Under the pieces are notes generated by a model that saw only the letters and a program-made list of their open reading frames with translations, was not told where the DNA came from and ran no database searches. From positions 1 to 40,917 of IMG/VR virus record IMGVR_UViG_3300037427_004114: a stretch of DNA of 40,917 bases; one strand, 5' to 3'. This DNA is from a virus. Shown here piece after piece: positions 6,638-33,000 of this stretch (the first letter of the stretch is position 1; every line of letters begins with the position of its first letter). A program made the position numbers and the translations under genes.

Positions 6638-8428
6638 TTAAGTCGTTAGGAACGGATCGAAGTTAACAAGTCCGTTGGCTCCATCGTCTCCGGCTCGTGA
6701 GCCTGCAACGAATAAGCCTGCACCCTTATCTTCTGGGCCTCCAACCTGAACTGAGAAACTAATGTCCACGCTCTTGTTGTCTCCGATTGTCGAAGAGAAC
6801 GATTCGCTGTCCACTTGTGCTCCTCTAAGCTCAAAGGTCATGGCGTTTTCGCCGCTTCCGTCAGCCGACGGGTCCTTTAAGGTAAAGGTTAAGTTGTGCT
6901 TCGTGAATTCAAACAACTGCGAAGTAACGTTGCCATCCTTAAGATCAGATGCAATCGCGCTGATAGAACATGTGATCGTGAGGGGGTAGTCCAACGGTTT
7001 CGTATAAGAGTATGGATTTCCAAGCCTTTGAAGAGGCGTCCTCGACATCGGGACATCAATACTGAAGTTCTGAACGTGAACCGTATTTGCGCTTCCTGGC
7101 AGATTCGTCATGAGTCCGGCACCGCCAGCGGTGCCCAGCGTCATTTCGATATCTCCCGGACGTAAGCAGGAAAACCCTTCCTCTCCAGAACCTTGAGTCG
7201 CGTCAATGCCGCTCTCTGCCTCTGGCAAGCTAAAGGTAATTCCGTCAACGGGCTTCCCGTCATCAGGGTTAACCGCAGGAATGTCAATGTTATGAAATCC
7301 TGTGTTCGATTGTAGGTTTAATCCCTCCACCGTAACTGAAGCAGTAGGCATTCCTCCAACCGCAGCTTCCATGCTGTAGTTAGAAATGAACCCGTTGCCA
7401 AGTGCAATGGTGGTTGTTCCAGTTGAGTTGTCCGGGCCGTGGGCGTCCGCAACCTTGCTAATTGACTCGCCCGCCGAAATGGCGCCGTCAAAGTCAATGG
7501 TTACTCTGAGGTTGTCCGCGTCCGTGATGGTCTCAACCGTTCTAACTACGCCATCAATTTTAATTTCGTCACGAACAGCAAGCTCTGTAACGAAATCCGC
7601 TCCAGTGCCCACTACGGCCCCCAGATCGCCGCCGTCCACTTCAACCGTACCGGTGAGTGCCACGTCAGGCGTCGCAGTATCGTCAAATTTAGAACTTCCA
7701 ACTGCATCCGTGCCCTCAGGGGTAGTCAGGATGAAAAAGTTTCTTCCAGCTACTTGAGCTTCGAGCTTGTCGGTTTGGACAAAATTGGTTGTCGTCGCAG
7801 CAAGTTCGCCCTTGGTTCCGACCTTAAAGCCCATATTGGCTTCGTTCTCCCCGTTAGTGAGGTAATAGGAGAAATCCATATTAACCGTAGGGGGGTCAAT
7901 GGCGACAGAATCAATACGTGCCAGTTGGCCGAATTGATTTACGTCTTGTCTATTAATTGTAAAACTGTAGTTTGCGCTTTGCACTCGGCTAAGTTGCCGG
8001 GCTCCTGCGTGAATGGTCCACTTGTCGTCATCTGGACTCGCATCTGTCGAAGCATTCAAGGCGTAACCATTGGTGCCGGACGCGTCGGCAGATGTCAAGG
8101 GTAGAAGCGGAGCTTCCGAGGTACTCTTATTGGCGACATAATATCTTATGACGCCCCCCTCGGTCACTTTCTTTTTAGTGTCTTTGCTATAAGTACCCGC
8201 AGTCCATTCCGCGTGAAGGTCTTTGTTTGCTGCCGATGCCGGCGTGGTTACTAGGTCCCAGTCTGCACTTGGGACTACTAACGAATCTATCGTGGAGGGC
8301 TGTGCTACAATCCCCACGCTTTTTCCGCCATTAATATTCGCGCAAGTGGCTGCCGCATGGTAGCCTGTACCGTCCGGTTGGCCGATGTAAAGCGCTTCAC
8401 TCTGATAGATAATTCTATTTCTTGCCAT
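6638..8428 (-). CDS. Probable major tail tube protein, 596 residues
   Basis: This is probably the tube subunit that surrounds the tape measure and forms the DNA channel. It has two tube-like halves, residues about 140-235 with 340-375, and 420-565. The start (MARNRIIYQSEALYIG) is followed by an extra segment at about 71-137 with a W-(x)4-Y...Y-x-V...W pattern like small glycan-binding modules. A second insertion at about 256-325 (TGTVEVDGG...RTVETITDADNL) resembles residues 187-245 of the fibre at 2235-5264. Both inserts could project from the tail surface. An AAGGA site lies 10 bases before the ATG, the best on this strand, as expected for an abundant protein. It is the last gene before the terminator at 6594-6611. 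The paralogue at 5344-6585 could instead be the main subunit; this one is favoured by the strong ribosome site and by its place after the neck genes. Confidence 0.8.
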   Translation of the reverse strand: MARNRIIYQSEALYIGQPDGTGYHAAATCANINGGKSVGIVAQPSTIDSLVVPSADWDLVTTPASAANKDLHAEWTAGTYSKDTKKKVTEGGVIRYYVANKSTSEAPLLPLTSADASGTNGYALNASTDASPDDDKWTIHAGARQLSRVQSANYSFTINRQDVNQFGQLARIDSVAIDPPTVNMDFSYYLTNGENEANMGFKVGTKGELAATTTNFVQTDKLEAQVAGRNFFILTTPEGTDAVGSSKFDDTATPDVALTGTVEVDGGDLGAVVGTGADFVTELAVRDEIKIDGVVRTVETITDADNLRVTIDFDGAISAGESISKVADAHGPDNSTGTTTIALGNGFISNYSMEAAVGGMPTASVTVEGLNLQSNTGFHNIDIPAVNPDDGKPVDGITFSLPEAESGIDATQGSGEEGFSCLRPGDIEMTLGTAGGAGLMTNLPGSANTVHVQNFSIDVPMSRTPLQRLGNPYSYTKPLDYPLTITCSISAIASDLKDGNVTSQLFEFTKHNLTFTLKDPSADGSGENAMTFELRGAQVDSESFSSTIGDNKSVDISFSVQVGGPEDKGAGLFVAGSRAGDDGANGLVNFDPFLTT

Positions 8429-8438
8429 AATTTAGGTT

Positions 8439-8443
8439 TCCTT
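8439..8443 (-). promoter_or_regulatory. Strong Shine-Dalgarno site of the tube gene
   Basis: The minus strand reads AAGGA ten bases before the ATG at 8428. It lies within a nearly palindromic CCTTTTTAAAAGG stretch that could partly mask it. The 62-base gap to the upstream gene also leaves room for a separate promoter, but I see no convincing boxes. Confidence 0.6.
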
Positions 8444-8490
8444 TTAAAAAGGGTTTGATTCTTATTACATTCTTTTCTTGTAAATGAGAA

Positions 8491-9339
8491 CTAAATTCTC
8501 GGATAGCGATATGTTAGCACTTCGAAGTCAATAAATCCAACAAAAGTGTTTGGGCTAACCTGCTTTGTGATCCTGTCGCTAAGCTTGGAGACGTCCACTC
8601 TGTCTATGTGATGTAGGGCTCCTGGGCTTGCTGCTAATTTTGTGTCTGATAGGGTTTTGTAATTATAGTTCGGCGCATCTCCCTGCTCCGTTATCGGATA
8701 ATCCTCGAAGGACAGCGCTGCAAAAACTTCTTTATTTGAGTCGTTGAAAATTGAAAGCACTCCGTCCAATTGGTAAATGTTTTCCGCAAGTACTACACAG
8801 CGTATATCTGATGTTGTCTGCTCCTCTCCCCCAAAGGAAAAGGGGTCGTTCTTGTTTTTAACATTATTTATAAATATTGCAGGCAGGACTTGGTCGTACG
8901 GTGGGATTGGAGTTGATGTCTGGTTGAACCTGCTGTTTGTGTCAAATTGAGATTCAATAATTAAGTTCTCCTCTGTTTCGCTTGTTACATATGTATTAAA
9001 GTCTTTGACCGCGTAAGAGGCAGTCACCGCCGCGCCCACGCTAATGGTTGAACTGACGACCCTTCCGTTTTGATAATCTATTGCAAGGGTGGAGCTTCTT
9101 GGGGTGTCAACCCCATCTACGCTAACGCTCGACGGAACCTCTGCTCCGCTGATTCCGTTATCGAACACCCACTGCTTATAGGGGCTTGAGAACCCTTCGA
9201 GGCCCGTCGCTAGCCTATCGTCGTCAAGATGAGTTAGGTCTGTATTGTAGTTTTTGAAGGCCTCTCCTTTCCTTAGCAAGTAATTGTCGAACCATAGCGC
9301 AAAGCTTGAGGTTATCGAGTGCTGGAACTGGGGCTTCAT
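8491..9339 (-). CDS. Virion structural protein, candidate tail terminator or neck protein
   Basis: The 282-residue product (MKPQFQHSITSSFALWFDNYLL) is not recognised from sequence alone. It is a soluble alpha/beta protein with no signal peptide or membrane segment. Residues about 70-110 form a small beta module (SVDGVDTPRSSTLAIDYQNG and following), and the C-terminal part (VGFIDFEVLTYRYPRI) ends in a hydrophobic strand. Its ATG overlaps the stop of the gene before it as ATGA, so the two are translationally coupled. In siphophage order, the gene between the gp10-like tail completion protein and the tube protein is usually the tail terminator, which caps the tube and joins it to the neck. That assignment is by position only; the protein is longer than the usual 130-200 residues. 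A minor tail protein is the alternative. Confidence 0.75.
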   Translation of the reverse strand: MKPQFQHSITSSFALWFDNYLLRKGEAFKNYNTDLTHLDDDRLATGLEGFSSPYKQWVFDNGISGAEVPSSVSVDGVDTPRSSTLAIDYQNGRVVSSTISVGAAVTASYAVKDFNTYVTSETEENLIIESQFDTNSRFNQTSTPIPPYDQVLPAIFINNVKNKNDPFSFGGEEQTTSDIRCVVLAENIYQLDGVLSIFNDSNKEVFAALSFEDYPITEQGDAPNYNYKTLSDTKLAASPGALHHIDRVDVSKLSDRITKQVSPNTFVGFIDFEVLTYRYPRI

Positions 9340-11531: not shown

Positions 11532-12517
11532 TGGCCAAGACCTCCTGCCGCCGAAAAGCTTTTCGGGACATTGTTCATGGATTTTCTCCTGAAGAATACC
11601 GAGGAGAGCTGATTTATATTAAACACCTCTCTCCGCACGACCAAGTCGAGCTTGAGGATTTAACCGAAATATACCAATCGCAAGCTGAGGAACGGGGCCT
11701 GCCGACTGAAGCGCAAATGCTTGACTTCCTCGAAAAGGAGGGTAGCTGGACCAGGGAGGACGATAAAAAAGTTGAAGCAATTGAAGGGTTTATTTCGTTG
11801 CTGCAATCCTCAAAGGCAAAAATAGTCTTAAAGTCCGCAATAGACCAGCAAAACGAATTGATCCTCAAGGAGGAGGCTAAGCTTTCTGCCAAGCTGCAGC
11901 AGAAAGACGACTTAATCGGCAACACTTGCGAAAGGTATGCCCAGCAGCGAACTAACGATTTTTATATACTAAAGAGCTTTTACAGCGATAGGGAGCTTAA
12001 ATACCCCTTGATGTCTGAAGGCGAATACAACGAGCTTACCGCCCCTGATCTAGCTATCCTTGTTCGCCTGTATAATGACGTGTTCGCTTCTTTTTCTGAG
12101 GAATCAATACAGTATTTAATACTCGAAGAATTTTATCAACCTTATTTGAGTTTTTCTGATGATAGTATGCAGTTTTATGGCATACCTTTTTGTTTATTAA
12201 CTTATAACCAGGTTAGAATGATTGTATACACTAGGATATTTAAGAGTATATATGAAAATAATAACAATATTCCCGAAAAGGTGCGGAACGACCCCAAGGC
12301 CCTGCTCGATTATGGAAGTATCTCTGATGAGGAAAAGGAAAAGATGAAGGAGAGGTTTGAGTCTAGTGACGGAGCCACTCTTGTTGGGGCGAAAAAGGAG
12401 GATTATGAGTACCTTGGGATCAAGCCCCCGTCCGGCGGAGTTGATCTTCACGCGGCCGCAAAAAAGAAAGGCGGTTCTCTGAATATGGAGGACATGATGA
12501 AACTTTCAGGCGTGTGA
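11531..12517 (+). CDS. Candidate tail assembly chaperone (second of two), GTG start
   Basis: The 328-residue product starts at GTG 11531 (first residues MAKTSCRRKAFRDIVHGFSP). It is mainly helical and acidic; residues about 75-130 form a probable coiled coil, and about 190-245 form an aromatic-rich segment (YLILEEFYQPYLSFSDDSMQ). The C-terminus (GGVDLHAAAKKKGGSLNMED) is basic and probably flexible. It overlaps the preceding gene by one base and lies 39 bases before the tape measure gene, the place of the lambda T part of gpGT, but no sequence similarity is claimed. The codons at about 12110-12272 drop to roughly 27-30% GC and recover sharply at 12270. Confidence 0.75.
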   Translation: MAKTSCRRKAFRDIVHGFSPEEYRGELIYIKHLSPHDQVELEDLTEIYQSQAEERGLPTEAQMLDFLEKEGSWTREDDKKVEAIEGFISLLQSSKAKIVLKSAIDQQNELILKEEAKLSAKLQQKDDLIGNTCERYAQQRTNDFYILKSFYSDRELKYPLMSEGEYNELTAPDLAILVRLYNDVFASFSEESIQYLILEEFYQPYLSFSDDSMQFYGIPFCLLTYNQVRMIVYTRIFKSIYENNNNIPEKVRNDPKALLDYGSISDEEKEKMKERFESSDGATLVGAKKEDYEYLGIKPPSGGVDLHAAAKKKGGSLNMEDMMKLSGV

Positions 12518-12556: not shown

Positions 12557-15500
12557 ATGAGTATTAATGTAAATGTAGGCGGTAATACAGACCCTCTAGT
12601 TAGGGACATTACTGCTGCTGTTGATAGAATCAATAAGTCTGGGCGGCTAAAAATTCAGCTCGACTCAAGGGGCGTTACTCAGCCGCTCGGAAGGATGACT
12701 CGGTCTGCTGACGAGTTTACTAAATCGCTTGAAGCCTCTAACGCTCGCGTCCTTGCTTTTGGCGCTTCCGTGGGCGTAATTAACGCAGTGTCCCAGGCAT
12801 TTAAGGGCCTTGTTCAATCCACAATGGAAGTTGAGAAAAACCTGACCGACATTAATGTTGTTATGGGTTTGACCACTAGGGAGTTGGATAAATTTGGGGG
12901 AGGACTCATGAAAGTCGCAAAGGAGACTGGAGCCGGCTTTAAGGCCGCTTCCGATGCCGCAACGGAATTCGCTCGGCAGGGCCTTAGTATGGCCGAGACG
13001 CTAAAAAGAACCAGCGACGCCCTTATCTTGACTAGATTGACGGGTATGGATGCCGCAGAATCTGTAAAATCTATAACCGCCGCCATGAATACTTTTGGAA
13101 GCGAAGTGAAAAACTCCACCGAACTAGTCAGTAAGTTTGCTGCGGTGGATGTAAAGTTCGCAGTTAGCGCAGGCGACTTTGCTCAAGCTATATCTCGGGC
13201 CGGTCAGTCTGCTAAGCAAGCCGGCGTAGATATCGATACTTTTGTCGGCATGGTAACTGCCGCGCAAGAGAGGACCGCTCGTGGAGGGGCTGTTATAGGT
13301 AATGCTTTAAAAACCATTTTCACTAGAGTTCAAAAACCTGCGACCCTGAAGCAACTGGAGTCTCTTGGTATTGCCGTTCGCGACATCAGTGGGCGCACTA
13401 TGGAGGCGGACAAAATAATCGGGTCATTAGCCCAAAGCTGGGACAATCTCACTGACGCCCAGCGCGCAAGCACGGGGCAGACTGTGGCGGGAATGTTTCA
13501 GATTAATATATTAAAAGCTGTTATGGCGGACATGGCAAAGCAAAACAACGTGACGTCTGAAGCTATGAAAATTTCTGCCCGGGCTACCGACGAATCTACT
13601 AAAAAAAATGAAGCCCTGCGGCAAACCATGAGCGCCCTTGCGGGCGAAACTGGCGTCGCTGTACAGGAGCTAGCCAAGAAGATAGGCGACATCGCCCTTG
13701 CTCCGGGCATTAGTCAGGTGCTCGACAGCATCAAGGGAATGGCTGAAGGTATGGGCGGCCTACTTGGGGACGGGGAAAATGAAGGCAATAAATGGGCCAA
13801 GGGGCTCCTGAAGGGGGTTGGGAATATGCTGACTGGCCCGGGCCTGGTTATTTTTGCTGCCGTCGCCGGGAAACTTTTCTTTAACGCGTTCAAGTACGCA
13901 AAGGACAGCCTGGGAAGTCTATTAAACATCAACAAGGCCGCCACACAAAGGGTTACGCTCGAGCAATCTCTCATGCAGGTGATTACCAAAAACGACCATA
14001 TCATGAAGGAGATGCTTCGCACCGACACAAATCGTGAAGTTAAACAAAAAATCATTACCGACCTCATTCGCCAGCAAACCCGAGAGGCTGAAAGGCTCTC
14101 GAGTATTACGAGGAGCATGAGCGGGCCAATGCTAAGGATGGGGATCTCTCCTGACCTTACAGACAAGAGAGCCTCTGGGTACATTCCTAATTATGCAAGC
14201 CCCGCAACTCAAGAGAAAAGGGAGGCTGCTAAGGGCGGCTACGTCGCGGGCAAAATCAAGCAAGGACCCGGCTTCGTATACAACGACAAGGAGGAATGGA
14301 AAAAATTCCCGGGACTGAAAGAGCCGGGGCTGCTGCCTCCACAACCCTCTGAGGCATCGAAGAAGTACGCAGAGGATTTTTCCAGCAAGCATGGGTTTGA
14401 CCCATATGCCGCAGGGGGATATGTACCGAATTTCGCTATAGCTATTGCTGAGAAGAGGTGGACAAAACAGAACGCCTTGAGCGTCTATAATAGCGCCAAG
14501 AAGACGCCCGAGGAGAGGGCTGCTGCTGAAGAGTGGCTCGCCGAAAGAAATCACCTCGGCGAATATAATACAAAATCAAGCGCAATCACGGTTCCTGCCG
14601 CCCAATACCAACGCGGGCAAGCGGGCAAAATTCAAGCGCAGAAAGTTAAGGGGGCTAAGGAGTTTGACGCCACCAGTTTATTTACATTGCTAGCATTAAA
14701 AGGCAGCTCCGCAGTATCAGCATCAGTATACCCCGGAGGAAAGGGCAAGGAATCTATTTACGGTCTGGCCGCCAATCAGGACGGAGTCCTGCCTAAAATA
14801 AAATTTGGCATTTCGGGATTCAAGAAGGGGAATATTGCCACCGCAGAGAATTCAGAAAAAGATAATTTAGAAATAATTCAAGACATGCTGCTTGACGGCG
14901 CCGTAGCCAAGGGGGTGGAGTTCTCTAATAGTTTAAACCTCGGGGACTCAAAGAATGGAGGCCCCCCTTTTAGGTCCACGCCAAAAACGATGGAGGCGGC
15001 GTTGAGAAAGGGCGGCAGCGGGGCTCTTGGCGCACTGTCCGGCTTAGGGGGAGCCCTCTTCGAAGCCGCTATATCGACAAGGCTTCCCGCAACGGATATA
15101 GGCGGGGGGCCTGGAAAATTCAAACATGCCGGCGGCGGCGAGACAAGGGTCGGCGGTGATTTCGATGTCAGGGACATTAAGAACCACCCGCTTATAGCTG
15201 CACTTTTTGACCCGGGCCCAATAGCAGATGTCGGAGACTATAAGACCCAGTCAAATGACGAGACCAAGAAGAGTATGGCTAACAAAATTGCAAAGGAAAT
15301 GATCTACCGTAGGCACCCTGATTTCGTTGGGGAAGGAGATCAATCAGGCAAGGGGGTATACATAGATAGCGAAAACAGTAAACCTATGTATGGCAGAGAG
15401 GGGGGAGCCGTAAGCGGAAAGCTTAAAGACTTGTCTTCAATTAAGGCCTCCGGATTTGTTCCTAATTTCGCCGCAGTGTCTGCAAGCTGGCTGAGGAAGA

Positions 15501-18500
15501 GGGGAATTTCTAAGGTTAGTAGGGGTATACTACGAGCCACTGACAGCGAAACGGGATCATGGACAGATTTCGGTACAGACGGAGCTCTTTTAAACGCTTC
15601 GCGAGGCCCAAAAAACTTAAAAGGTGGAGCCTTTAGGAATTTTAATACAATAAATGAATACGCAAAGAAGCGAGGCTTAGGGTCTGTGTATTCTGGGGAC
15701 GTTATACAGCAGCGCGCAGGGAAGGGCTCCACTCCTTGGGCGCGAATTGTTAATAGTTTTCCTCAATTAAAATATAGATTGCAGAAGGGAATGAAAACTT
15801 CTGGCAGTTTTCAGCTTGGAGAAGGGAACGAATTTGATTTTAAAAGCGCAACTGATTTAAAAAAACAAATTAATCGCCACGTTAAAAAGTATGGCGAGGA
15901 TGATCTTGGATGGCTTGACACAAACATGCAAATGGATTTCGGGGAAGAGGTTCAAGGGTTTGATTGGAAAACCTCAAGGACTAAAGGCGCGGGCGATGCA
16001 AGAGCTGGATTTAAGGCTGGCGGCCACGTTCCTAATTATGCATCAAAATTTTCAACACGAGCATATACTAGAGGTGTGGGTATGCGCCACACTGATGCTT
16101 TGATTAAGGAACCTAGCGATCCTAATTTTACTGGGAACATGAAATCGTACATGGAGTACCATAAGGAAGGTCCTAGTACTAGGCATATAGATTATATGAA
16201 ATCTTACAACAAGGGGGATGCGTTTGATTTGTTTAGCGCAGCCTCAAGGCAAAAATTTATGAAGGGAGGTGGGGCTTATGCGTCTGACAAAATAAAGCAA
16301 CAAAGGTCATACAAGCAGGGCTCTACCTCAAACTGGGAGGATCTATTGTACGCCTTTCCTCAAATGAAATATCGCATGCAAAATGGGATGACTACAAGTG
16401 GAACTATTACTGCTCACATGAAAAATAGATTGCTTAATCAAAATTTTAAGACAATCGCTGGGTTGCTGCCTGTAATTAATAGTCTTGATCGTGAGGAATT
16501 TCGGGAAACGTTGGGCAATATAGGGGCGTTTAATGGTACCCCTGGCATGCACAAGGTCGAAATAACCGATTTGTACACCCGCCTCAAGAAGGGCGGGCGA
16601 GGTGACGGGAAGGCTTATGGCAAAAAGGCTGGAGGTTTCATTCCTAATTACGCAGACCCACTAAGCGACGCCATAGGAAGGGAGAGGGGCGCCGGCGTTC
16701 CTGTTTCTCAAATTAGAGTTGGAACGCATCGAAAGTTAGTCGGAAAAAGTAATCCCGCCGGACTCGGCGTTACCAATACCCACGACGAACCCAACGGGCT
16801 GCGTGATGTGTTTGGAGCAGGACAAGGGATTGTTCCTAACTTTGCCATGGGCGGGTCCATAAAAGAAATGCTTGGGATAGGTTTAGACGAAACCATGTCG
16901 AGCTTAAATGAGGAAATGGACCAGCTTGCCAAGGAGCTTTCTAAGTTCGAAGGAACCGTAGAGTATACAGAGCAAAGGCAGCAAAAATATGGTAAATCTG
17001 TCGACTCTGCCCGGGAGGAAGTTGACCGGCTGAAGGCCGAAGAGAAATCATATAGGGACGGCGTCAGGGGGAGAAAGATCGGATCAAAAAATCACCAAAA
17101 AGTTGAAAAACAATTAACCATTGCTGAAGACCGGCTTAAAAGCGAGGAGCTCAAGCAGGGTGTCGCTTCAAGGAGAAATACTAAAGCGAAGGACAGCCTG
17201 ACCGCCGCCGAAAATAAATTAAAAACAAATCAGCAGGCGCAAGCGCGAGTCAGCGGGCGCCAGGGCCGGTCAGGCATGCTAGGCATGGGAGCTATGATGG
17301 CAATGCCAATGCTTGGTGGCATGATGGACCCTACGGGCAGCCCTTTGAATCAAGAAGGTACCGGCATGAACTACGGCGGGGCGGCGAGCTCTGCTATGAC
17401 TGGCGCCAGTACGGGACTGATGATGCTTGGACAATTTGGGGTCTGGGGAAAGGTCATAGGTGGCGTAGGCGGAGCCTTGTGGGGGCTGGCGAATGCGTCA
17501 AATGCCGCCGCAGAAGCTCTTGAGAAAAAGAGGAAGGAGGAGGATCGAAAAGCCTATGTGTCGGCTGGCCTTCAGGCTGAATCTATAGCAAAAAGCAAAA
17601 TGTTTGACCTTGAGTCCGCTGGGTTAAGCCTGGACTCGAAAATTGAAAAACTAAATCTTAATTTAACTCAAAAGTTTGGGAGGCAGGTGGGAGAGCAATG
17701 GACAAAGCACGGTAAACGAGGCGTGGGCCTTGCGGAGTATACAATGAGTGGAACCTCGGGAGGCGACCACATTCTTGACCCTCATGCATCTGACGAGGGA
17801 CACGTGAAGGGAATGGCGAAGTTCCTTTTGAGGTGGGGCGTAGGGTCACTGTCCTCAATGGGAGGGGTGAGTGAGCATAGGGTGGGCGACGTAGGGCCTG
17901 GCGGCTCGGCTCCGACGGAAACCACCCAGACCTCAACTTCGACCCGGCAAAGTACGCCCGCAAGATACGGAATGCTCTTGCCTGGCCTAGGCTCCTCTGA
18001 GAAAATTAAAGAATTACAACTTGCATACGAGAACGCAGTCGCAACGGAGGGACTGTTAAGTAACCGTAGGACAGACGACGGCGCAATAATAACCGGAGCG
18101 GGATCGCAAGTATCCGAAAAGTACTTGAAGGATTATGGAGTCGAAAATCTGAAGGCCGGACGCGACGGAAGAGAAAAACTAAAACCCACTCCAGCTAAAG
18201 ATCGGAATCCTGCGCTTTGGACGACGTCCTCGCATGGAGATATACTTAAGGTTACAAAAGAAAGGATCGAGGCCGAGAAAAAACTTATCGAGGCTATTCG
18301 TGAGAGCGGAGAGGACATTTCTCTTGGCGCCCTCAGCAAGGCTATTGCCCCGGGCGGGAAAATGTCACAAACGATTATCGACAGGGTTGTGAAGAGCTTT
18401 ACGGGGGAGAAGGAAGAGAAAGAGAGGGGCAAGAGTGCCGGGGAATTTTTAAGAGATTTTGAAAGGGGCAGGTTTAAGGATCTAGAAGATCTGCAAGAGG

Positions 18501-21500
18501 GGTTCAAGAATGTCAGGGGTGAGTCCGAAGGTGTGGACAGCGTGATGACAGGCGCCAGAGACATTCTCAGCAAGCGATTCCAGGTTATTGATTCATTCTT
18601 ACAGGAAAGGCTGGACAAAGACGAAAACTATCAAGTTGAGCTTCCCCCTAACGCGGATGGAACAATTGAGACCCAGTCCGCGCGCGAACTCAAGCGCGAG
18701 ATGGAACAGGCTATAAAATCGCTGGGTAAAAATGGCAAGGAGTTGACTAATAAAATGAACGACCCCAAGTTAATAACAAACATCAGTAAAATGGCAAGGC
18801 TCAGCGCGGTCATCCTGAAGGGGTGGAGCGACACCGCCGACAATCTCGAAAAGAGCAACCGAGCCGTCATTCTGCAGCTGAATCTAGATACGGCTAAGAT
18901 CGCAGCTCAAAGAAAAACTAACGAGCACCTTAGGGCGATCGAAAGCGCTTATAAGCAGCAATTGAGAAATATTGTTTCAGGGGACAGGCTTTACGGCTCG
19001 GGAATGTCCAGGGTGCACGACGCTCAAAACAAATATGCCAAAACCATGATGGCTGCGCAGGTCGCGCACGGAAAAGGTAAAATCAAAGCTGAGGAAGATT
19101 ACAGAACATCCACCCTTTCCGAGCTGGGGAAGAGGGGTTTTGCGGAGGAGTTAAAAATTCTACTCGCTGGACTCGGGGGCACAGATAAGCCGAAGCCTAA
19201 CGAAACTGAGGCTAACAAGAAAAAGCGTGTGAACGAAGCGGCCGAGGAGAAACAAGCAGAGCTTAAAAGGTCGTTTTCCTTAAATTTCACTAAGGACTTT
19301 CTGAAGAGCCTGAGAGTCGAGCTCGATGACAAAGGTTTAGAGACGCCGGAATCTGTGGATCGACGAAGTGCCGCCCTGGGCGTTGCCTCGAAAGCGGATA
19401 TTCAAGAGCTTTTCAGATATATTGACAGCTCAGGCGCTGGTGGCCTGGATCTAATCCCTAAACTGCTTAAAAAAGCTCAGTCACAAAGAGAAGAAGCTCT
19501 AACGACCAATAAGCATACCTTGGAACTAACAACTAGGCAGGCGGATCAGGAAAAAGCCATAACCCTATTGCTTGACAAGAGGCTCTCTAAGATGGAATCC
19601 ATGGAGCGGGTCGGCGCGAGACTAAACAAGCAAGCTGAAAACGCAACTAGAATTCGTGGACAAGAACAAACTACTTCGGCTCTGAAATTTGATCGAGACG
19701 CCGGGCAGGGCTTTAGGGGGCGATATTCTACTGCTGTGCAAGGACACAGAAAGGCAGGCATACAGATGGAGGCCAGTATCGTAAATAACATGTCCTCCAT
19801 GACGACTGCAAACAGAAATTTAATTAAAAAGGCTGCGGACGAAGCCGACATACCCTTGACCGAAGGCGAACTTAAGGATCTGACCGCCAAGGCCCAGGGG
19901 CCGAACTTTGATTTAGCTGAAGCGCTAAGAGCCAAAGCTAAGTCGGAAGCCGGGAGCGCAAGGCAGGCGAGGTCGAAAGCTTTTGTAACACATTCGCTGG
20001 GAGCGGTCACGAGTAACGCTCCGACCGTCGTTGCTGGCATCGGCGGTCAACGTACGCCGGTTATGGAATATGTCGAAAAACAGCTAGAGCTTGAGAAAGG
20101 CAATTACGATGTATTTGATATAGCTGCCCACCAGAAAACCGAGGAAGCCGCCCGAGGCAAAACAGACGTAGAGGAGTGGAACAGACAAAAAGCGGAGCTC
20201 AGGGCCCTCGACATAGCCGCCGAGGCAGCTCAGAAAAAAAGCGACGACCTTGCTGCCAATGACAACGAAAGGATGAGGGCTATCGCAGACATGGGGCTAG
20301 AGATAAAAAACAACCTTACAACAGAAGGGAAAGTAACCGCAGAACTTAGGGCCCAACTGGCAGTACAAAAGGAATTAATAGATGCGCGCGAGGCTCATAT
20401 TACCGGACCCGGATCCGCCGGACGAGGATTCGACGACGGCCTTGGAGCTCTGAATGACGAAATGAAAACTTTTCGCTATAACCTCACTCAGTCAATCCCT
20501 AAAGATTTTTCAAACGCATTAGGCGGAGCCCTTCACAGCGCCATTCGGGACGGAGAGAAACTTGGGGACACTTTGCGTAAGGCGGCCCTAGGGTTCTTGG
20601 ACACATTGAACCAAAAATTCATGGGTCACTTCGCGGACCAAATAACCCTGAGCCTATTTGGGCCAGGTAAATCCGCCGCCCTTAATAAAGGAGGACCGGT
20701 TCCCGCTAGGTTAACTAATGGGGAGTTTGTGATGGATCGGTCAGCCGTGAAAAAGTACGGAGGCGGTTTTATGGACTCGCTTAATAAGGGGAAGTCTCCC
20801 GTTAGTCGGCAAGAAGGAGGGCCAAGCCTCGCTGAATTTTTCAGAGAACCCATCAAGGGGAATACGGTGGAGGACGCCTTTGGTGAGTACATAAAACAAT
20901 CGAGGGCTAGAAGTTTTGAATCGTCGTACTTTGAAGCCAGGCCCGGGCCGCTCACTGGATCCAAGCGGCAAAACCTGCCTGGCATAGACCCCATGGGTGG
21001 AGTGGGCCCTGGGGGGATAACTCTAGATTACTTGGGCAGAACCCGGGACGCTTTCAATAACCCAATAAAACCTGGAGGGTCGCTGGCGCCCATGCCTAAC
21101 CCCTCCTCGAAGGCTCCCCGGGGCCTCTCGCCACAACAATTTAAAAATATTCAAAAACTACCTCCTCTTGGGACCCCTGATGTGTCTGGTATACCAGGCT
21201 TCGAAGGTAGATATGCAGATACCGAAGACAGCAAGAAGCTTCATAGTTTCTTCTCTAATGCAACCTCCACAGGTATTGAGAAAGGAAAGGAGCAAGCCGC
21301 CGGAAAAATAAAACAGATCGGGAAAGGGCAAGGCGGAGGTGGATTCTTTAGTATATTTGGCGACCTGTTAATGTTACCGTTTAAATTACTTGGAGGACTT
21401 TTTGGAATGAAGGACTTTAACAAAGGCGGGCAAGTAAAAGGTTACGAAGGGGGCGGTGGAGTTCAGGGCTTGGGCATGGCCTTGGGGAGTATCGCTTTGG

Positions 21501-22696
21501 GACAATTGCTGAAAGAGGACGAAGAGCCCGAGCACGAAGCGTTACGCGACAGCTGGGCTGAGACCAGGTACAATAAGGAAACTAAACAGGTCACCGGTAA
21601 CCGCCCTTGGGAAAAGAAAGGTCGCCGCATGTCTGCTCGTTACATGCAGCAAAACCAGCGCGTTCAAGACTACGCCGGAGCATTGTCTCAACAGAAACAG
21701 GCCCAGCTGGATGAAAAGCTTAAAAAATTCGAGGAAAAACAGCAGCTCGGCCGAGGAATATTCTCCGCCGTGGCAAGTTATGGCCTAGCTAAAGCGGGCT
21801 CGCACCTTCAAGAGACCGGTGCTTTCGGCAGGGCCGACTTAGCCATGGGGCTAGGCACCAGCGGGCAAGTGAAGGGGCCGGACGGCAATATGATGAACGT
21901 TAAAATGTCCCCCGATGGAAGAGTCGTTAGGTCTAGTAGTGATTCCATTATAGACATGTCCAGTAAAGGAGTTATAGAAAGCAGCGCCTTCAATATGTCC
22001 AAAACGGGAAGCATGCCTAAGTGGCTAGGGGGCTCCGGCGAGTATGGAACTTCTATGGTTGAGGGCCCCGGGGGATTTAAGGAAATGATTACTGAAAAGA
22101 GGTTTCAGAAAGGCGCAGACGGAAACTTCTTTTCCGCTACGCCCGAAAGCGGGAATTGGGGAGAGCGGTTTGGCGCCAAGCCTACCGCTAACGAAAAGCG
22201 CGGGGCTAATATTTTTGGATACAAGAAGGATGACGACAAGTCCCGGCTAGGCAACACTTTAAGCTGGATGAATCAGCAGGTCAACCCATTTACTTGGGAA
22301 AGGAAAAATTCCGGAGGAAAAATTGCAGGCCAGCCCGGGGTAGACAAAATACCTGCCATGCTTACCGAGGGGGAATACGTTATAAACGCAAATGCCGCTC
22401 GCCAAATAGGAGAGCCCACTCTTAACAAAATTAACAGCGGACGTTTCGCTAACGGAGGCATAGTTTCTGACGAACCTAAGGATAGGTCCTCTGGCTCGGG
22501 AGCAGATAACACCAACAACATAACCATAACTATCAATGTTGATAAAAGCGGCGGAACCTCCGAAGCAAACGTTTCTAATGAGGGGCAGGGAGAAGAAGGT
22601 AATATGAACCAGCTGTCCACAAAGATAAAAGAACAAGTCGTTACTATAATTAAAGAAGAGAGTCGCCCCGGAGGCATGCTCGATGACGGGAAATAA
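12557..22696 (+). CDS. Tape measure protein, 3379 residues, with embedded modules
   Basis: This sets tail length and is expelled with DNA at infection. Residues about 85-330 match the TP901-type tape measure core (VEKNLTDINVVMG...GGAVIGNALKTIFTRVQKP). Six P-N-[FY]-A motifs stand at about 541, 621, 966, 1156, 1360 and 1424 and bound compact modules. The 621-966 module has a PD-(D/E)XK-like set (E836, D868/D870, D894-Y-K896). Residues 1430-1565 are coiled coil; about 1574-1650 is hydrophobic and glycine-rich, possibly membrane-active. Residues 1650-2620 are long charged helices. About 2640-2700 (DFSNALGGALHSAIRDGEKL) resembles the lambda gpH C-terminal domain. Two G-E-[FY]-V signatures lie near 2715-2745 and 3255-3300. 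At about 0.15 nm per residue the tail would be near 500 nm if all of it is extended. An AAGG site precedes the ATG. Confidence 0.96.
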   Translation: MSINVNVGGNTDPLVRDITAAVDRINKSGRLKIQLDSRGVTQPLGRMTRSADEFTKSLEASNARVLAFGASVGVINAVSQAFKGLVQSTMEVEKNLTDINVVMGLTTRELDKFGGGLMKVAKETGAGFKAASDAATEFARQGLSMAETLKRTSDALILTRLTGMDAAESVKSITAAMNTFGSEVKNSTELVSKFAAVDVKFAVSAGDFAQAISRAGQSAKQAGVDIDTFVGMVTAAQERTARGGAVIGNALKTIFTRVQKPATLKQLESLGIAVRDISGRTMEADKIIGSLAQSWDNLTDAQRASTGQTVAGMFQINILKAVMADMAKQNNVTSEAMKISARATDESTKKNEALRQTMSALAGETGVAVQELAKKIGDIALAPGISQVLDSIKGMAEGMGGLLGDGENEGNKWAKGLLKGVGNMLTGPGLVIFAAVAGKLFFNAFKYAKDSLGSLLNINKAATQRVTLEQSLMQVITKNDHIMKEMLRTDTNREVKQKIITDLIRQQTREAERLSSITRSMSGPMLRMGISPDLTDKRASGYIPNYASPATQEKREAAKGGYVAGKIKQGPGFVYNDKEEWKKFPGLKEPGLLPPQPSEASKKYAEDFSSKHGFDPYAAGGYVPNFAIAIAEKRWTKQNALSVYNSAKKTPEERAAAEEWLAERNHLGEYNTKSSAITVPAAQYQRGQAGKIQAQKVKGAKEFDATSLFTLLALKGSSAVSASVYPGGKGKESIYGLAANQDGVLPKIKFGISGFKKGNIATAENSEKDNLEIIQDMLLDGAVAKGVEFSNSLNLGDSKNGGPPFRSTPKTMEAALRKGGSGALGALSGLGGALFEAAISTRLPATDIGGGPGKFKHAGGGETRVGGDFDVRDIKNHPLIAALFDPGPIADVGDYKTQSNDETKKSMANKIAKEMIYRRHPDFVGEGDQSGKGVYIDSENSKPMYGREGGAVSGKLKDLSSIKASGFVPNFAAVSASWLRKRGISKVSRGILRATDSETGSWTDFGTDGALLNASRGPKNLKGGAFRNFNTINEYAKKRGLGSVYSGDVIQQRAGKGSTPWARIVNSFPQLKYRLQKGMKTSGSFQLGEGNEFDFKSATDLKKQINRHVKKYGEDDLGWLDTNMQMDFGEEVQGFDWKTSRTKGAGDARAGFKAGGHVPNYASKFSTRAYTRGVGMRHTDALIKEPSDPNFTGNMKSYMEYHKEGPSTRHIDYMKSYNKGDAFDLFSAASRQKFMKGGGAYASDKIKQQRSYKQGSTSNWEDLLYAFPQMKYRMQNGMTTSGTITAHMKNRLLNQNFKTIAGLLPVINSLDREEFRETLGNIGAFNGTPGMHKVEITDLYTRLKKGGRGDGKAYGKKAGGFIPNYADPLSDAIGRERGAGVPVSQIRVGTHRKLVGKSNPAGLGVTNTHDEPNGLRDVFGAGQGIVPNFAMGGSIKEMLGIGLDETMSSLNEEMDQLAKELSKFEGTVEYTEQRQQKYGKSVDSAREEVDRLKAEEKSYRDGVRGRKIGSKNHQKVEKQLTIAEDRLKSEELKQGVASRRNTKAKDSLTAAENKLKTNQQAQARVSGRQGRSGMLGMGAMMAMPMLGGMMDPTGSPLNQEGTGMNYGGAASSAMTGASTGLMMLGQFGVWGKVIGGVGGALWGLANASNAAAEALEKKRKEEDRKAYVSAGLQAESIAKSKMFDLESAGLSLDSKIEKLNLNLTQKFGRQVGEQWTKHGKRGVGLAEYTMSGTSGGDHILDPHASDEGHVKGMAKFLLRWGVGSLSSMGGVSEHRVGDVGPGGSAPTETTQTSTSTRQSTPARYGMLLPGLGSSEKIKELQLAYENAVATEGLLSNRRTDDGAIITGAGSQVSEKYLKDYGVENLKAGRDGREKLKPTPAKDRNPALWTTSSHGDILKVTKERIEAEKKLIEAIRESGEDISLGALSKAIAPGGKMSQTIIDRVVKSFTGEKEEKERGKSAGEFLRDFERGRFKDLEDLQEGFKNVRGESEGVDSVMTGARDILSKRFQVIDSFLQERLDKDENYQVELPPNADGTIETQSARELKREMEQAIKSLGKNGKELTNKMNDPKLITNISKMARLSAVILKGWSDTADNLEKSNRAVILQLNLDTAKIAAQRKTNEHLRAIESAYKQQLRNIVSGDRLYGSGMSRVHDAQNKYAKTMMAAQVAHGKGKIKAEEDYRTSTLSELGKRGFAEELKILLAGLGGTDKPKPNETEANKKKRVNEAAEEKQAELKRSFSLNFTKDFLKSLRVELDDKGLETPESVDRRSAALGVASKADIQELFRYIDSSGAGGLDLIPKLLKKAQSQREEALTTNKHTLELTTRQADQEKAITLLLDKRLSKMESMERVGARLNKQAENATRIRGQEQTTSALKFDRDAGQGFRGRYSTAVQGHRKAGIQMEASIVNNMSSMTTANRNLIKKAADEADIPLTEGELKDLTAKAQGPNFDLAEALRAKAKSEAGSARQARSKAFVTHSLGAVTSNAPTVVAGIGGQRTPVMEYVEKQLELEKGNYDVFDIAAHQKTEEAARGKTDVEEWNRQKAELRALDIAAEAAQKKSDDLAANDNERMRAIADMGLEIKNNLTTEGKVTAELRAQLAVQKELIDAREAHITGPGSAGRGFDDGLGALNDEMKTFRYNLTQSIPKDFSNALGGALHSAIRDGEKLGDTLRKAALGFLDTLNQKFMGHFADQITLSLFGPGKSAALNKGGPVPARLTNGEFVMDRSAVKKYGGGFMDSLNKGKSPVSRQEGGPSLAEFFREPIKGNTVEDAFGEYIKQSRARSFESSYFEARPGPLTGSKRQNLPGIDPMGGVGPGGITLDYLGRTRDAFNNPIKPGGSLAPMPNPSSKAPRGLSPQQFKNIQKLPPLGTPDVSGIPGFEGRYADTEDSKKLHSFFSNATSTGIEKGKEQAAGKIKQIGKGQGGGGFFSIFGDLLMLPFKLLGGLFGMKDFNKGGQVKGYEGGGGVQGLGMALGSIALGQLLKEDEEPEHEALRDSWAETRYNKETKQVTGNRPWEKKGRRMSARYMQQNQRVQDYAGALSQQKQAQLDEKLKKFEEKQQLGRGIFSAVASYGLAKAGSHLQETGAFGRADLAMGLGTSGQVKGPDGNMMNVKMSPDGRVVRSSSDSIIDMSSKGVIESSAFNMSKTGSMPKWLGGSGEYGTSMVEGPGGFKEMITEKRFQKGADGNFFSATPESGNWGERFGAKPTANEKRGANIFGYKKDDDKSRLGNTLSWMNQQVNPFTWERKNSGGKIAGQPGVDKIPAMLTEGEYVINANAARQIGEPTLNKINSGRFANGGIVSDEPKDRSSGSGADNTNNITITINVDKSGGTSEANVSNEGQGEEGNMNQLSTKIKEQVVTIIKEESRPGGMLDDGK
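14177..16849 (+). repeat. Six G-x-[IV]-P-N-[FY]-A motifs in the tape measure protein
   Basis: The motifs are GYIPNYA (14177), GYVPNFA (about 14417), GFVPNFA (15452), GHVPNYA (16022), GFIPNYA (16634) and GIVPNFA (16826). Most are preceded by small residues (A, S, G). They separate segments of about 80, 345, 190, 204 and 64 residues that differ in sequence. No motif occurs in the helical C-terminal two thirds of the protein. Confidence 0.9.
15062..15244 (+). other. PD-(D/E)XK nuclease-like signature within the tape measure
   Basis: Within the 621-966 module an E lies in GALFEAAIS (E836). It is followed by a D-F-D (D868, D870), then about 23 residues later by ADVGDYK (D894, K896). The order E, D, D-x-K on alternating strand/helix segments is what PD-(D/E)XK phosphodiesterases use to bind metal. 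The evidence is motif-level only; no homologue was searched. Confidence 0.4.
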
Positions 22697-30024: not shown

Positions 30025-33000
30025 ATGAAAACTGTATACTTACATGGGTCTTTTGGTAAAGAATTTGGGCACGAATGGTCGCTCAATGTAAAAAGCCCTG
30101 CGGAGGCTATACGGGCCATAAATATAAATACCGACAATCGGTTTATGGATCATGTGCACGAGCAGGAGCTTGCCGGAGCAAGGTTTTCAATCGTAACCGT
30201 TACTCCGTCCGAGAGGGAAAAGCTCGAATCTTTTACTTCCAGGGGGGAGTTTGACCCCGCCTTAGCGTCCTCTATCTTTTCTAATGAAATGACTGCGTAC
30301 TGTTCTTCCTCCAAGAATGAATTTCACTTTGTTCCAGTGGTCGAGGGGGAAGCCTTTCTTCCTGCTTTAATTATCGCCGGAGCAAAGGCCGCCGTAGTCG
30401 CGGCGGGATCCATGAGCCTTAGTACTTTTGCTTTTTACGCATTAGGGGCCATGGCTATAGGAGCAATCTCAAACATGCTCTTTCCTTCCCCAGAGCAAAA
30501 CGATGAAACTAGAAAAACTAAATCATATCTTTTTGACGACCGACCGAATATAACCAAGCAGGGAGCTCCTGTGCCGGTAGGGTACGGAATGCTAAAGATT
30601 GGGTCCAACACTCTGTCGTTTACTAGAGTCAATAAAGACAAGCACCCAAATGGTACGACCGACGATATGACCGAAACGTTCACCGAATATACCGTTACCG
30701 ACATACTTTCCGAGGGCCCCATTGAGGGACTGTGCGACATGCATGGCCGGGTCGTAAACGGGTCTAGCCCCAATCTTAAGGGGCTAATTAACAATTTCCA
30801 CTCGTTCGACGAGAACATGAGTCTAAAGTCTATATATTTGAATGAGATCCCTGTGATGGAGCCGGGCGGAAGTTTGAATTTTATACTAAACGAAGGACAG
30901 GGCGCGGGCACTGCCACTGGGTTAGAGGATCAGCCGCAGTGCAGTTTGGGGTATATGGACCAAACAGAAAACAGAAAAGGCCAACTCCTCCCGTTCTCCG
31001 AAATTGAAACTCAAGGACAGGCCGAGCTGCCCGGGCCGTCGAGCGATAAAGCCACTACCGGAGCGGCGATCCTGGATGGAGCTAAGTTGTTTGCCTATCC
31101 CGTTACTGCTAGAGGCGTCGGACAACTGAAGATAACGTTGTCTCCCCAGGCCATGTATAACAACTGGACTGAAACCCGCAACCGAAGGGGGTTTTTGGGC
31201 ATGGGAGCCAGAATGAGGGTTGATCGAGGTACCGACGCGGTCGCAATTACAATCGGCGCCAAAATAAAATACGGACGGTCCACCTGCCCTCTTATCTCGC
31301 CCCTCAACGGGTTTGGCGGAAGCGAAGGGGGAACTGGCTGGGAAACTACAGGAGCGGGCAATAGGAAAATTACCAAAACTTTAGGGATTGACCACCGAGT
31401 GCCCGAGGATCTTACCCAAGGCGAGCAAAACAATTTGGCGAGGGTGTTTCTTGCAGCCCTCTTTGAGGATCTCTCTCAGGCCTTTGAGCGTAACAATGGA
31501 ATTCGGGCGTTCTGCAAGGAGTATAAGTCCGTTATTGATAGCACTGATTTGCTTAATGGCTCCGTGGAGGGGGGGTTTTTCGAAGTCGCTGATGCGGCAG
31601 GAACCTTTCCTCCCATTGCGCCTAGAACTTTTAAACAATTCGTCAACGATTACTGTAACGGTTATAGACTTAATAATTTAGCCAACAATGTTAGGACATA
31701 CTCAAAAGACGACACTCCTTCAGTCAATAAAACAGGCGCCCTTTTGGTCCACTTGTACTCTCAGATTAGATCCGGGGCGGGAGTGGAGGAGTTGAGTCAT
31801 AATAACTATGACGACATAATGTCAACCCTTAAGTCTGCGTCCCTTAAGGGCTTTAGGAAGAAAGGTGGACATAATAAGATTCTCGGTTCCGACGGGTATT
31901 TTTACGACTCCACGCACGTTGGCTTGGAGAGTAAAATAACGGTAAAAACTATTTCTACTTCCCCCGCCGGGCTCAATCTTCAGACGGCGCTACCTTATTT
32001 TGGGCCTAGCGAAAATTTAATCCTTAATTTAGTTAGACTCACTAAGGAGATCGTGGACCCGCAAGAGCAAACTACCACATCTAACCGCATAAACCTTAGC
32101 GGCATATCTTCCGTGACTACTTTGATGGGCAAGCCTCTTCGATATCAACACCCCGGGGCCGCAATGATTAAGATTCCATTCGACGCTGTCAACTTCCCCC
32201 AGCTGCCTGAGCGAAACTACCTTGTGAAATTGAAAAAGGTCCCAGTTCCTGAGAACTATAACCCCCGAACGAGGAAATACTACCGAGCGTGGAACGGCCT
32301 GTTTAAAGGGCAAAGAGACGGAGAAGGCTACTCGGAGATTGGGGAGACCTCGATGGAGTGGACCGACAATCCAGCCTGGATATTGGTCGACATGCTCCTT
32401 AATCAACGATTTGGCGTCGGAACCTTTGGGTTTACTCTTAACGAAATAGATATATGGACCTTATATGCCACTGCTAAATTCTGTGACGAGCTTGTCGAGA
32501 CGGGATTTCCTCTTGAGCACCCTAAACGCTCTTTTACGTCCACACAAGCAGCTCCAACCAAGAGCGAGTTTCTGGATGAAAGTCACACTTTTGATATTGA
32601 AATAACATCAACATCCAGCAACGTGAATTCCGAATTCAATGGAGCAGCAGCTGATTCAAGCACCTACTCTGCAGGAAAAAAAGTAGCCTTCTTTATGGAC
32701 GACGGAAGCTTTGAGGAAAGAGAACTTGTGTCCGTTGTTGGCCAAACCCTTATACTCGCCGGACCTTCTTTTGCCGACCACCCTTCCTCTGTGCATACGG
32801 ACGGAAACTACTTAACTTCTGGCCAATGCGTTTTGTCTGAAAGCTACCCCATACTTGAGCCCAGGTTCTCGGCCAGCGTGTTATTCTCCCAGAGGGAGGA
32901 GGCGCTTAGGGTTATTAAGGAGATCTGTACTATATTTAGGTCAGTGCTGGTTTATTCCGCAGGAAAGGTATCTCTGACTACGGAAAAGAAAAAGGACCCT

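Follow-up and report, generated by a model that had tools for sequence, protein, structure and literature searches.

Tape-measure proteins (TMPs) with embedded peptidoglycan hydrolases carry an enzyme domain inside the tape measure. In siphophages, the TMP sits in the tail and adjoins the incoming DNA end. During injection, the lambda TMP is located at the inner membrane beside ManYZ (PMC13190303), and SNIPE, a host-encoded anti-phage defence, acts as a nuclease at this TMP/inner-membrane interface (PMC13190303). The nearest concept is that of the polyvalent proteins in phages and conjugative elements, large injected polypeptides whose several effector-like domains vary in their order (Iyer et al. 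2017, PMC5512222); the text of that paper makes no mention of tape measures. Polymorphic toxins, colicins and pyocins combine a conserved delivery part with an exchangeable and diverse nuclease part. In polymorphic toxins and restriction enzymes, change is driven by specificity or inhibitor escape; the combination described below, fixed catalytic positions with the remainder swapped wholesale, resembles them. The PD-(D/E)XK superfamily (Mrr, HJC, RecB-type and type II restriction enzymes) is characterised by a G-x3-E helix, a conserved D, a (D/E)xK strand and, in the helix that follows the strand, a basic residue.

The locus described here can be compared with each of these systems and departs from all of them. 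It lies in an uncultivated linear virus of 40917 bases; the window, meaning the whole stretch of DNA analysed, covers 40,917 nucleotides. A module within its TMP displays the four PD-(D/E)XK elements in the same order and with plausible spacing. Unlike the hydrolase-bearing TMPs, the signature is of nuclease type and is swapped among close relatives; unlike SNIPE, it is found in the phage's own TMP. A likeness to polyvalent proteins is possible, as the lineage has variable cassettes, one of them an acetyltransferase above the Pfam cut-off, on a polypeptide that would be injected; the carrier here is a TMP with G-x-x-P-N-F-A linkers and allele exchange. In contrast to polymorphic toxins, colicins and pyocins, the module is internal rather than C-terminal, it is virus-borne and no immunity gene was found nearby. 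Full-text literature searches turned up no account of a tape measure with an internal nuclease domain; subscription papers and preprints lay outside their coverage, and the search on the term PD-(D/E)XK may have failed.

The 3379-aa ORF was identified as a TMP by its PhageMin_Tail/TMP profile match (PF10145 at aa 121-312, E 1.6e-26), a PHROG match to tail length tape measure (7e-53) and its place as a long ORF among tail genes annotated with Pfam and PHROGs. A protein J-like gene (phrog_31) is found among the tail-tip genes, and the window was therefore read as a siphophage. A 1644-aa ORF at 30025-34959 appears to be a fusion of I- and J-type tail genes (tail assembly protein and central fiber J). 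The TMP contains six linkers that fit the pattern [AGS]-x-G-[FYHI]-[IV]-P-N-[FY]-A, at aa 541, 621, 966, 1156, 1360 and 1424. Between them, aa 541-1430, hereafter the bay, comprise a conserved spacer of 86 aa, the nuclease-like module, two mutually related modules and a conserved 64-aa segment. The original prediction had bounded the module by two PNFA motifs; the flanks at aa 624 and 969 were correctly placed, but they belong to a set of six. The features are as follows.

12557..22696, + strand: TMP ORF of 3379 aa that carries the cassettes (Pfam, PHROG)
14177..14434, + strand: 5' arm of the bay, with linker 1 GYIPNYA (aa 541), the conserved spacer of ~86 aa and the start of linker 2 (GYVPNF); mean column identity 73% (alignment A7, 14 TMPs)
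14438..15451, + strand: nuclease-like cassette, aa 628-965, between GYVPNFA (aa 621) and GFVPNFA (aa 966), defined by same-slot homologues and by breakpoints at the linkers
14642..15340, + strand: conserved core of this cassette, aa 696-928, used for the 65-row alignment A8, with invariant G832, E836, D870, K896 and K910
15062..15064, + strand: E836, predicted catalytic Glu in a helix, invariant, with G832 four residues upstream
15164..15166, + strand: D870, predicted metal-binding Asp, invariant save in L067
15236..15244, + strand: D894-Y-K896, the (D/E)xK element, with D or E at 894 and invariant K896; a strand in the L036-allele model
15284..15286, + strand: K910, invariant Lys by column conservation, in the next helix (helix 194-208 of the L036-allele model)
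15473..16021, + strand: second cassette, aa 973-1155, paralogous to the third and clustering by blastp with cassettes of L023, L024, L136 and L163
16043..16633, + strand: third cassette, aa 1163-1359, a relative of the second (blastp clustering)
16634..16846, + strand: 3' arm of the bay, GFIPNYA-DPLSDAIGRE...DEPNGLRDVF...GIVPNFA, at the same position in relatives, where homology resumes after the cassette

The second cassette had no Pfam match above the cut-off. The tandem cassettes of ~190 aa at 15473-16633 are without a family match and have relatives in the TMPs of L023, L024, L136 and L163; a stretch resembling 'GSTPWARIVNSFPQLKYR' is repeated among this group. The bay of L023 and L024 also holds a long low-complexity insertion at TMP aa ~650-1140, made of repeated 'GSKNQ' units.

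Conservation was measured on 53 same-slot modules picked by position and clustering, not by motif (alignment A4, with L067 left out). The only interior invariant columns were G832, E836, D870, K896 and K910. The 65-row alignment A8 yielded the same list; thirteen of the extra rows in A8 were collected with a motif regex, so that the unbiased count is the 53 modules of A4 plus the exception L067, which keeps the E and the K and is without D870 and without an acid at 894. E836 and D870 carried the highest information among 191 columns (A8, near-identical rows down-weighted, ~49 effective sequences), and position 894 was E in 51% and D in 49% of A8. Elsewhere in the module, mean column identity was 18-20%, near the alignment floor. 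Spacings were 19-35 residues from E to D, 22-30 from D to K and 14-21 from K to K. An E in a helix, a D and a (D/E)xK element thus occur in order and are conserved in the 53 modules, L067 being the exception; judged by sequence, the fixed residues are the E…D…(D/E)xK signature of PD-(D/E)XK nucleases.

The motif coordinates given in the original prediction (E836 at nt 15062, D868-F-D870, and D894-Y-K896 ending at nt 15244) were exact. Variation in close homologues would have spoken against the site; E836, D870, D/E894 and K896 do not vary among them and are changed in one distant homologue, L067. The proposed D-F-D motif is reduced to one conserved residue, D870, since D868 is variable (21 of 56 rows). 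Catalytic positions are altered in four variants (TMP aa 563-930 of L067, aa 975-1250 of L157, aa 1255-1526 of L127 and aa 739-898 of L135), which are possibly inactive copies.

A search with the module alone returned two relatives, 64% and 44% identical, both within TMPs (the former in two nearly identical contigs) and with motif residues identical to those of the window. Searching with the TMP N-terminus gave 70 loci, nearly all of which have a module of roughly 240-390 aa in the same slot between the same linkers; 80 of the 200 matching stretches found in viral contigs by a spacer search were kept. Profile analysis detected the core in 66 of 71 TMP ORFs of the lineage. The five ORFs without it were L068, a 500-aa fragment, and the distant L070, L072, L073 and L077; L070 contains two linker-bounded cassettes bearing the same motif type. 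Modules were clustered after trimming of the shared linker domain; to join separate groups, either a threshold of E<1e-3 or an iterated profile search was needed. Direct detection between D-type and E-type profiles was minimal. A jackhmmer-type iterated search started from the window allele alone reached nearly all other modules, and this result, together with the common slot, signature and spacing, is the reason why the two groups are considered homologous.

The module is confined to TMPs in the data searched. Nine of ten long records (76-211 kb) contain the core once, inside the TMP, and the tenth contains none; the exact linker DNA pattern occurs 1-4 times per long record, in a ~2-kb cluster coinciding with the TMP. 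No free-standing copy of the module was found in these data, which included the ten long records. None of the 50,697 records of cultured phages (INPHARED) matched the module, the spacer or any of several other cassettes, and the module and the TMP N-terminus had no match in GTDB contigs.

Comparing closely related TMPs revealed that the module is replaced as a unit. In 43 pairs with N-terminal 440 aa that are 97-100% identical, the median module identity was 29%, the level of random pairs, and it fell below 35% in 77% of these pairs. L037/L076 show the reverse, with 79% identity between the N-termini and 94% between the modules. In BLASTN comparisons of pairs with near-identical N-termini, homology stops and restarts at the linkers or within ~15 nt of them: L040 and L042 match up to nt 11890 (linker at 11870-11887), and the match resumes at 12689, where the next linker begins; L031 and L032 match up to 11892 and again from 12716, likewise a linker's first base. 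On either side of the TMP, L045 and L049 share 97.7% identity though their cassettes differ. The module therefore behaves as an exchangeable cassette. The conserved spacer and the downstream segment would serve as homology arms, so that recombination could swap whole cassettes and leave the TMP intact. Between alleles of one kind (recent pairs), dN/dS ranged from 0.05 to 0.40, with 0.22 for the window and L008, indicating that the modules are under purifying selection and are maintained, not decaying. A second variable TMP region, at ~aa 1000-1680 past the last linker, differs between L045 (nt 6698-8728) and L049 and likewise between L040 and L042. It is independent of the nuclease cassette, since L031 and L032 share it while their cassettes differ.

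Other, more distant TMPs of the lineage contain cassettes in arrays; these total 183, of which 130 are distinct at 90% identity, and form ~40 sequence groups. The cassette at L139:8614-9069, inside the TMP, is a GNAT acetyltransferase (PF00583, 5.4e-5, above the Pfam cut-off). Eight first cassettes (L127, L128, L135, L136, L145, L157, L163 and L168) make up a second nuclease-like family, with an invariant D followed by E-x-K in the arrangement D-x(9-11)-E-x-K ('VDLIGEG..PVEVKSG'). This spacing is the usual one for PD-(D/E)XK enzymes. Profile comparison between the main module and this second family gave no match. Inspection by eye pointed to cassettes resembling a P-loop kinase ('GPSGVGKST') and ADP-ribosyltransferases ('VFHGTT', 'LYRG') at TMP aa ~1395-1500 of L136, aa 1466-1901 of L128 and aa 1338-1562 of L163; Pfam gives them no support, and they are leads only.

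The fold of the module was addressed with two AlphaFold models. The model of the window module was of medium quality (pLDDT 71, pTM 0.63) and had no PDB or BFVD match in Foldseek. The model of the L036 allele, built on the 65-row homologue alignment, was good (pLDDT 83, pTM 0.81), and Foldseek again returned no PDB or viral match. Its residues E141, D166, E187, K189 and K203 are equivalent to E836, D870, D894, K896 and K910 of the window. Helix 129-146 contains E141, strand 185-191 contains E187-x-K189 and helix 194-208 contains K203; D166 adjoins a short bridge at 167. These predicted element types are those expected at a PD-(D/E)XK site. Unlike members of the superfamily, the module has its predicted strands before the E helix and not between E and D, and the gap of 20-28 residues from D to (D/E)xK holds an intervening helix. 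It is housed in a TMP and lacks a detectable sequence or fold match to the superfamily. The order in the L036 model (strands, helices, E helix, D, helix, ExK strand, helix) gives no linear alpha-beta-beta-beta-alpha-beta core, and the canonical strand between the E helix and D is absent from both models. The module may be a permuted or very derived PD-(D/E)XK member, or its site may be convergent. No credible match emerged when the module, its homologues and consensus sequences were compared with Pfam, PHROGs, NCBIfam, PADLOC and PDB sequences. A Foldseek match to Bse634I at rank 14 (E 1.7, probability 0.03) was treated as noise and not used, and hhalign against Mrr and McrC, a weak test with single-sequence templates, gave no match above the level of the unrelated control YjiA.

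The original prediction of an embedded PD-(D/E)XK nuclease is therefore borne out for the site signature and its conservation, while the fold is unconfirmed: neither model matches PD-(D/E)XK structures, and the order in the better one is not the linear canonical one. The module had also been described as different from the helical rest of the TMP, and both models are indeed mixed alpha/beta, yet mostly helical. Assignment to the superfamily is not yet warranted; a predicted PD-(D/E)XK-like working is.

A metal site on a different and perhaps new fold, belonging to a convergent nuclease, another phosphodiesterase or a ligand-binding enzyme, would account for a good model that has no PDB match and places its strands N-terminal of the E helix. 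We consider this unlikely, since the order and identity of the residues, the D/E alternation, the G-x3-E helix and the (D/E)xK strand are all PD-(D/E)XK traits, and this superfamily is known to evade fold and sequence searches and to take insertions. Less probable still is a role in which the PD-(D/E)XK-like nuclease is no delivered effector and works on the genome of the phage itself or on assembly, for example by trimming or gripping the DNA end in the tail. The position of the TMP next to the DNA end and the conserved catalytic residues would agree with such a role. It predicts conservation, however, yet versions only 20-30% identical are swapped between phages otherwise 94-98% identical in DNA, and distant TMPs hold other cassettes instead.

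In other siphophages, variation in parts of the TMP follows dependence on the inner membrane (PMC13190303), and the relatives of the window possess a second variable TMP region; both observations would fit a non-enzymatic structural spacer or host-factor-binding domain that varies with the inner-membrane receptor of the host. A binding domain would not keep exactly E, D, (D/E)xK and K invariant amid general variation, which makes this reading very improbable. A structural role at the DNA end and a pure spacer role were both weighed and ranked low.

We favour, as the probable explanation, a metal-dependent nuclease-type cassette with a PD-(D/E)XK-like site, exchangeable within the TMP of an uncultured long-tailed phage and delivered at injection. 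Its active site would consist of E836, D870, D894 and K896, with K910 assisting. The TMP would exit the tail at injection and take the cassette into the periplasm or cytoplasm, where the enzyme may cut RNA or the DNA of the host, of a plasmid or of a resident or competing phage; changes outside the active site would then reflect shifting targets, specificity or escape from inhibitors. The location of the lambda TMP at the inner membrane (PMC13190303) makes delivery plausible, and cytoplasmic entry of the domain does not follow from it. If the cassette is a delivered effector, one would expect allele exchange, purifying selection and a broader collection of linker-bounded cassettes, as observed. 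Both delivery and enzymatic activity are things we infer, and the cassette is probably delivered with the TMP. Counting against the nuclease-cassette reading, no co-varying immunity gene was found within ~5 kb of the TMP in L045/L049, so the adjacent cognate immunity gene typical of polymorphic toxins is missing there. Since no such gene travels with the cassette, the phage would have to protect itself through specificity, timing, DNA modification or location.

Whether the TMP of this lineage works more broadly as a cargo bay, with exchanged nuclease-type, acetyltransferase and enzyme-like cassettes injected with the genome as first-strike effectors against hosts or rivals, appears evenly balanced. 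The case would extend the phage-injected multi-domain effectors, and there is an open chance that it constitutes a new delivery class. If the proposal is true, the TMP joins the known delivery vehicles for phage effectors, and the extreme allele exchange within a structural gene would be explained. Unstudied nucleases and other effectors could then be found by reading between linkers, and whether TMPs bring folded enzymes into the cell becomes testable.
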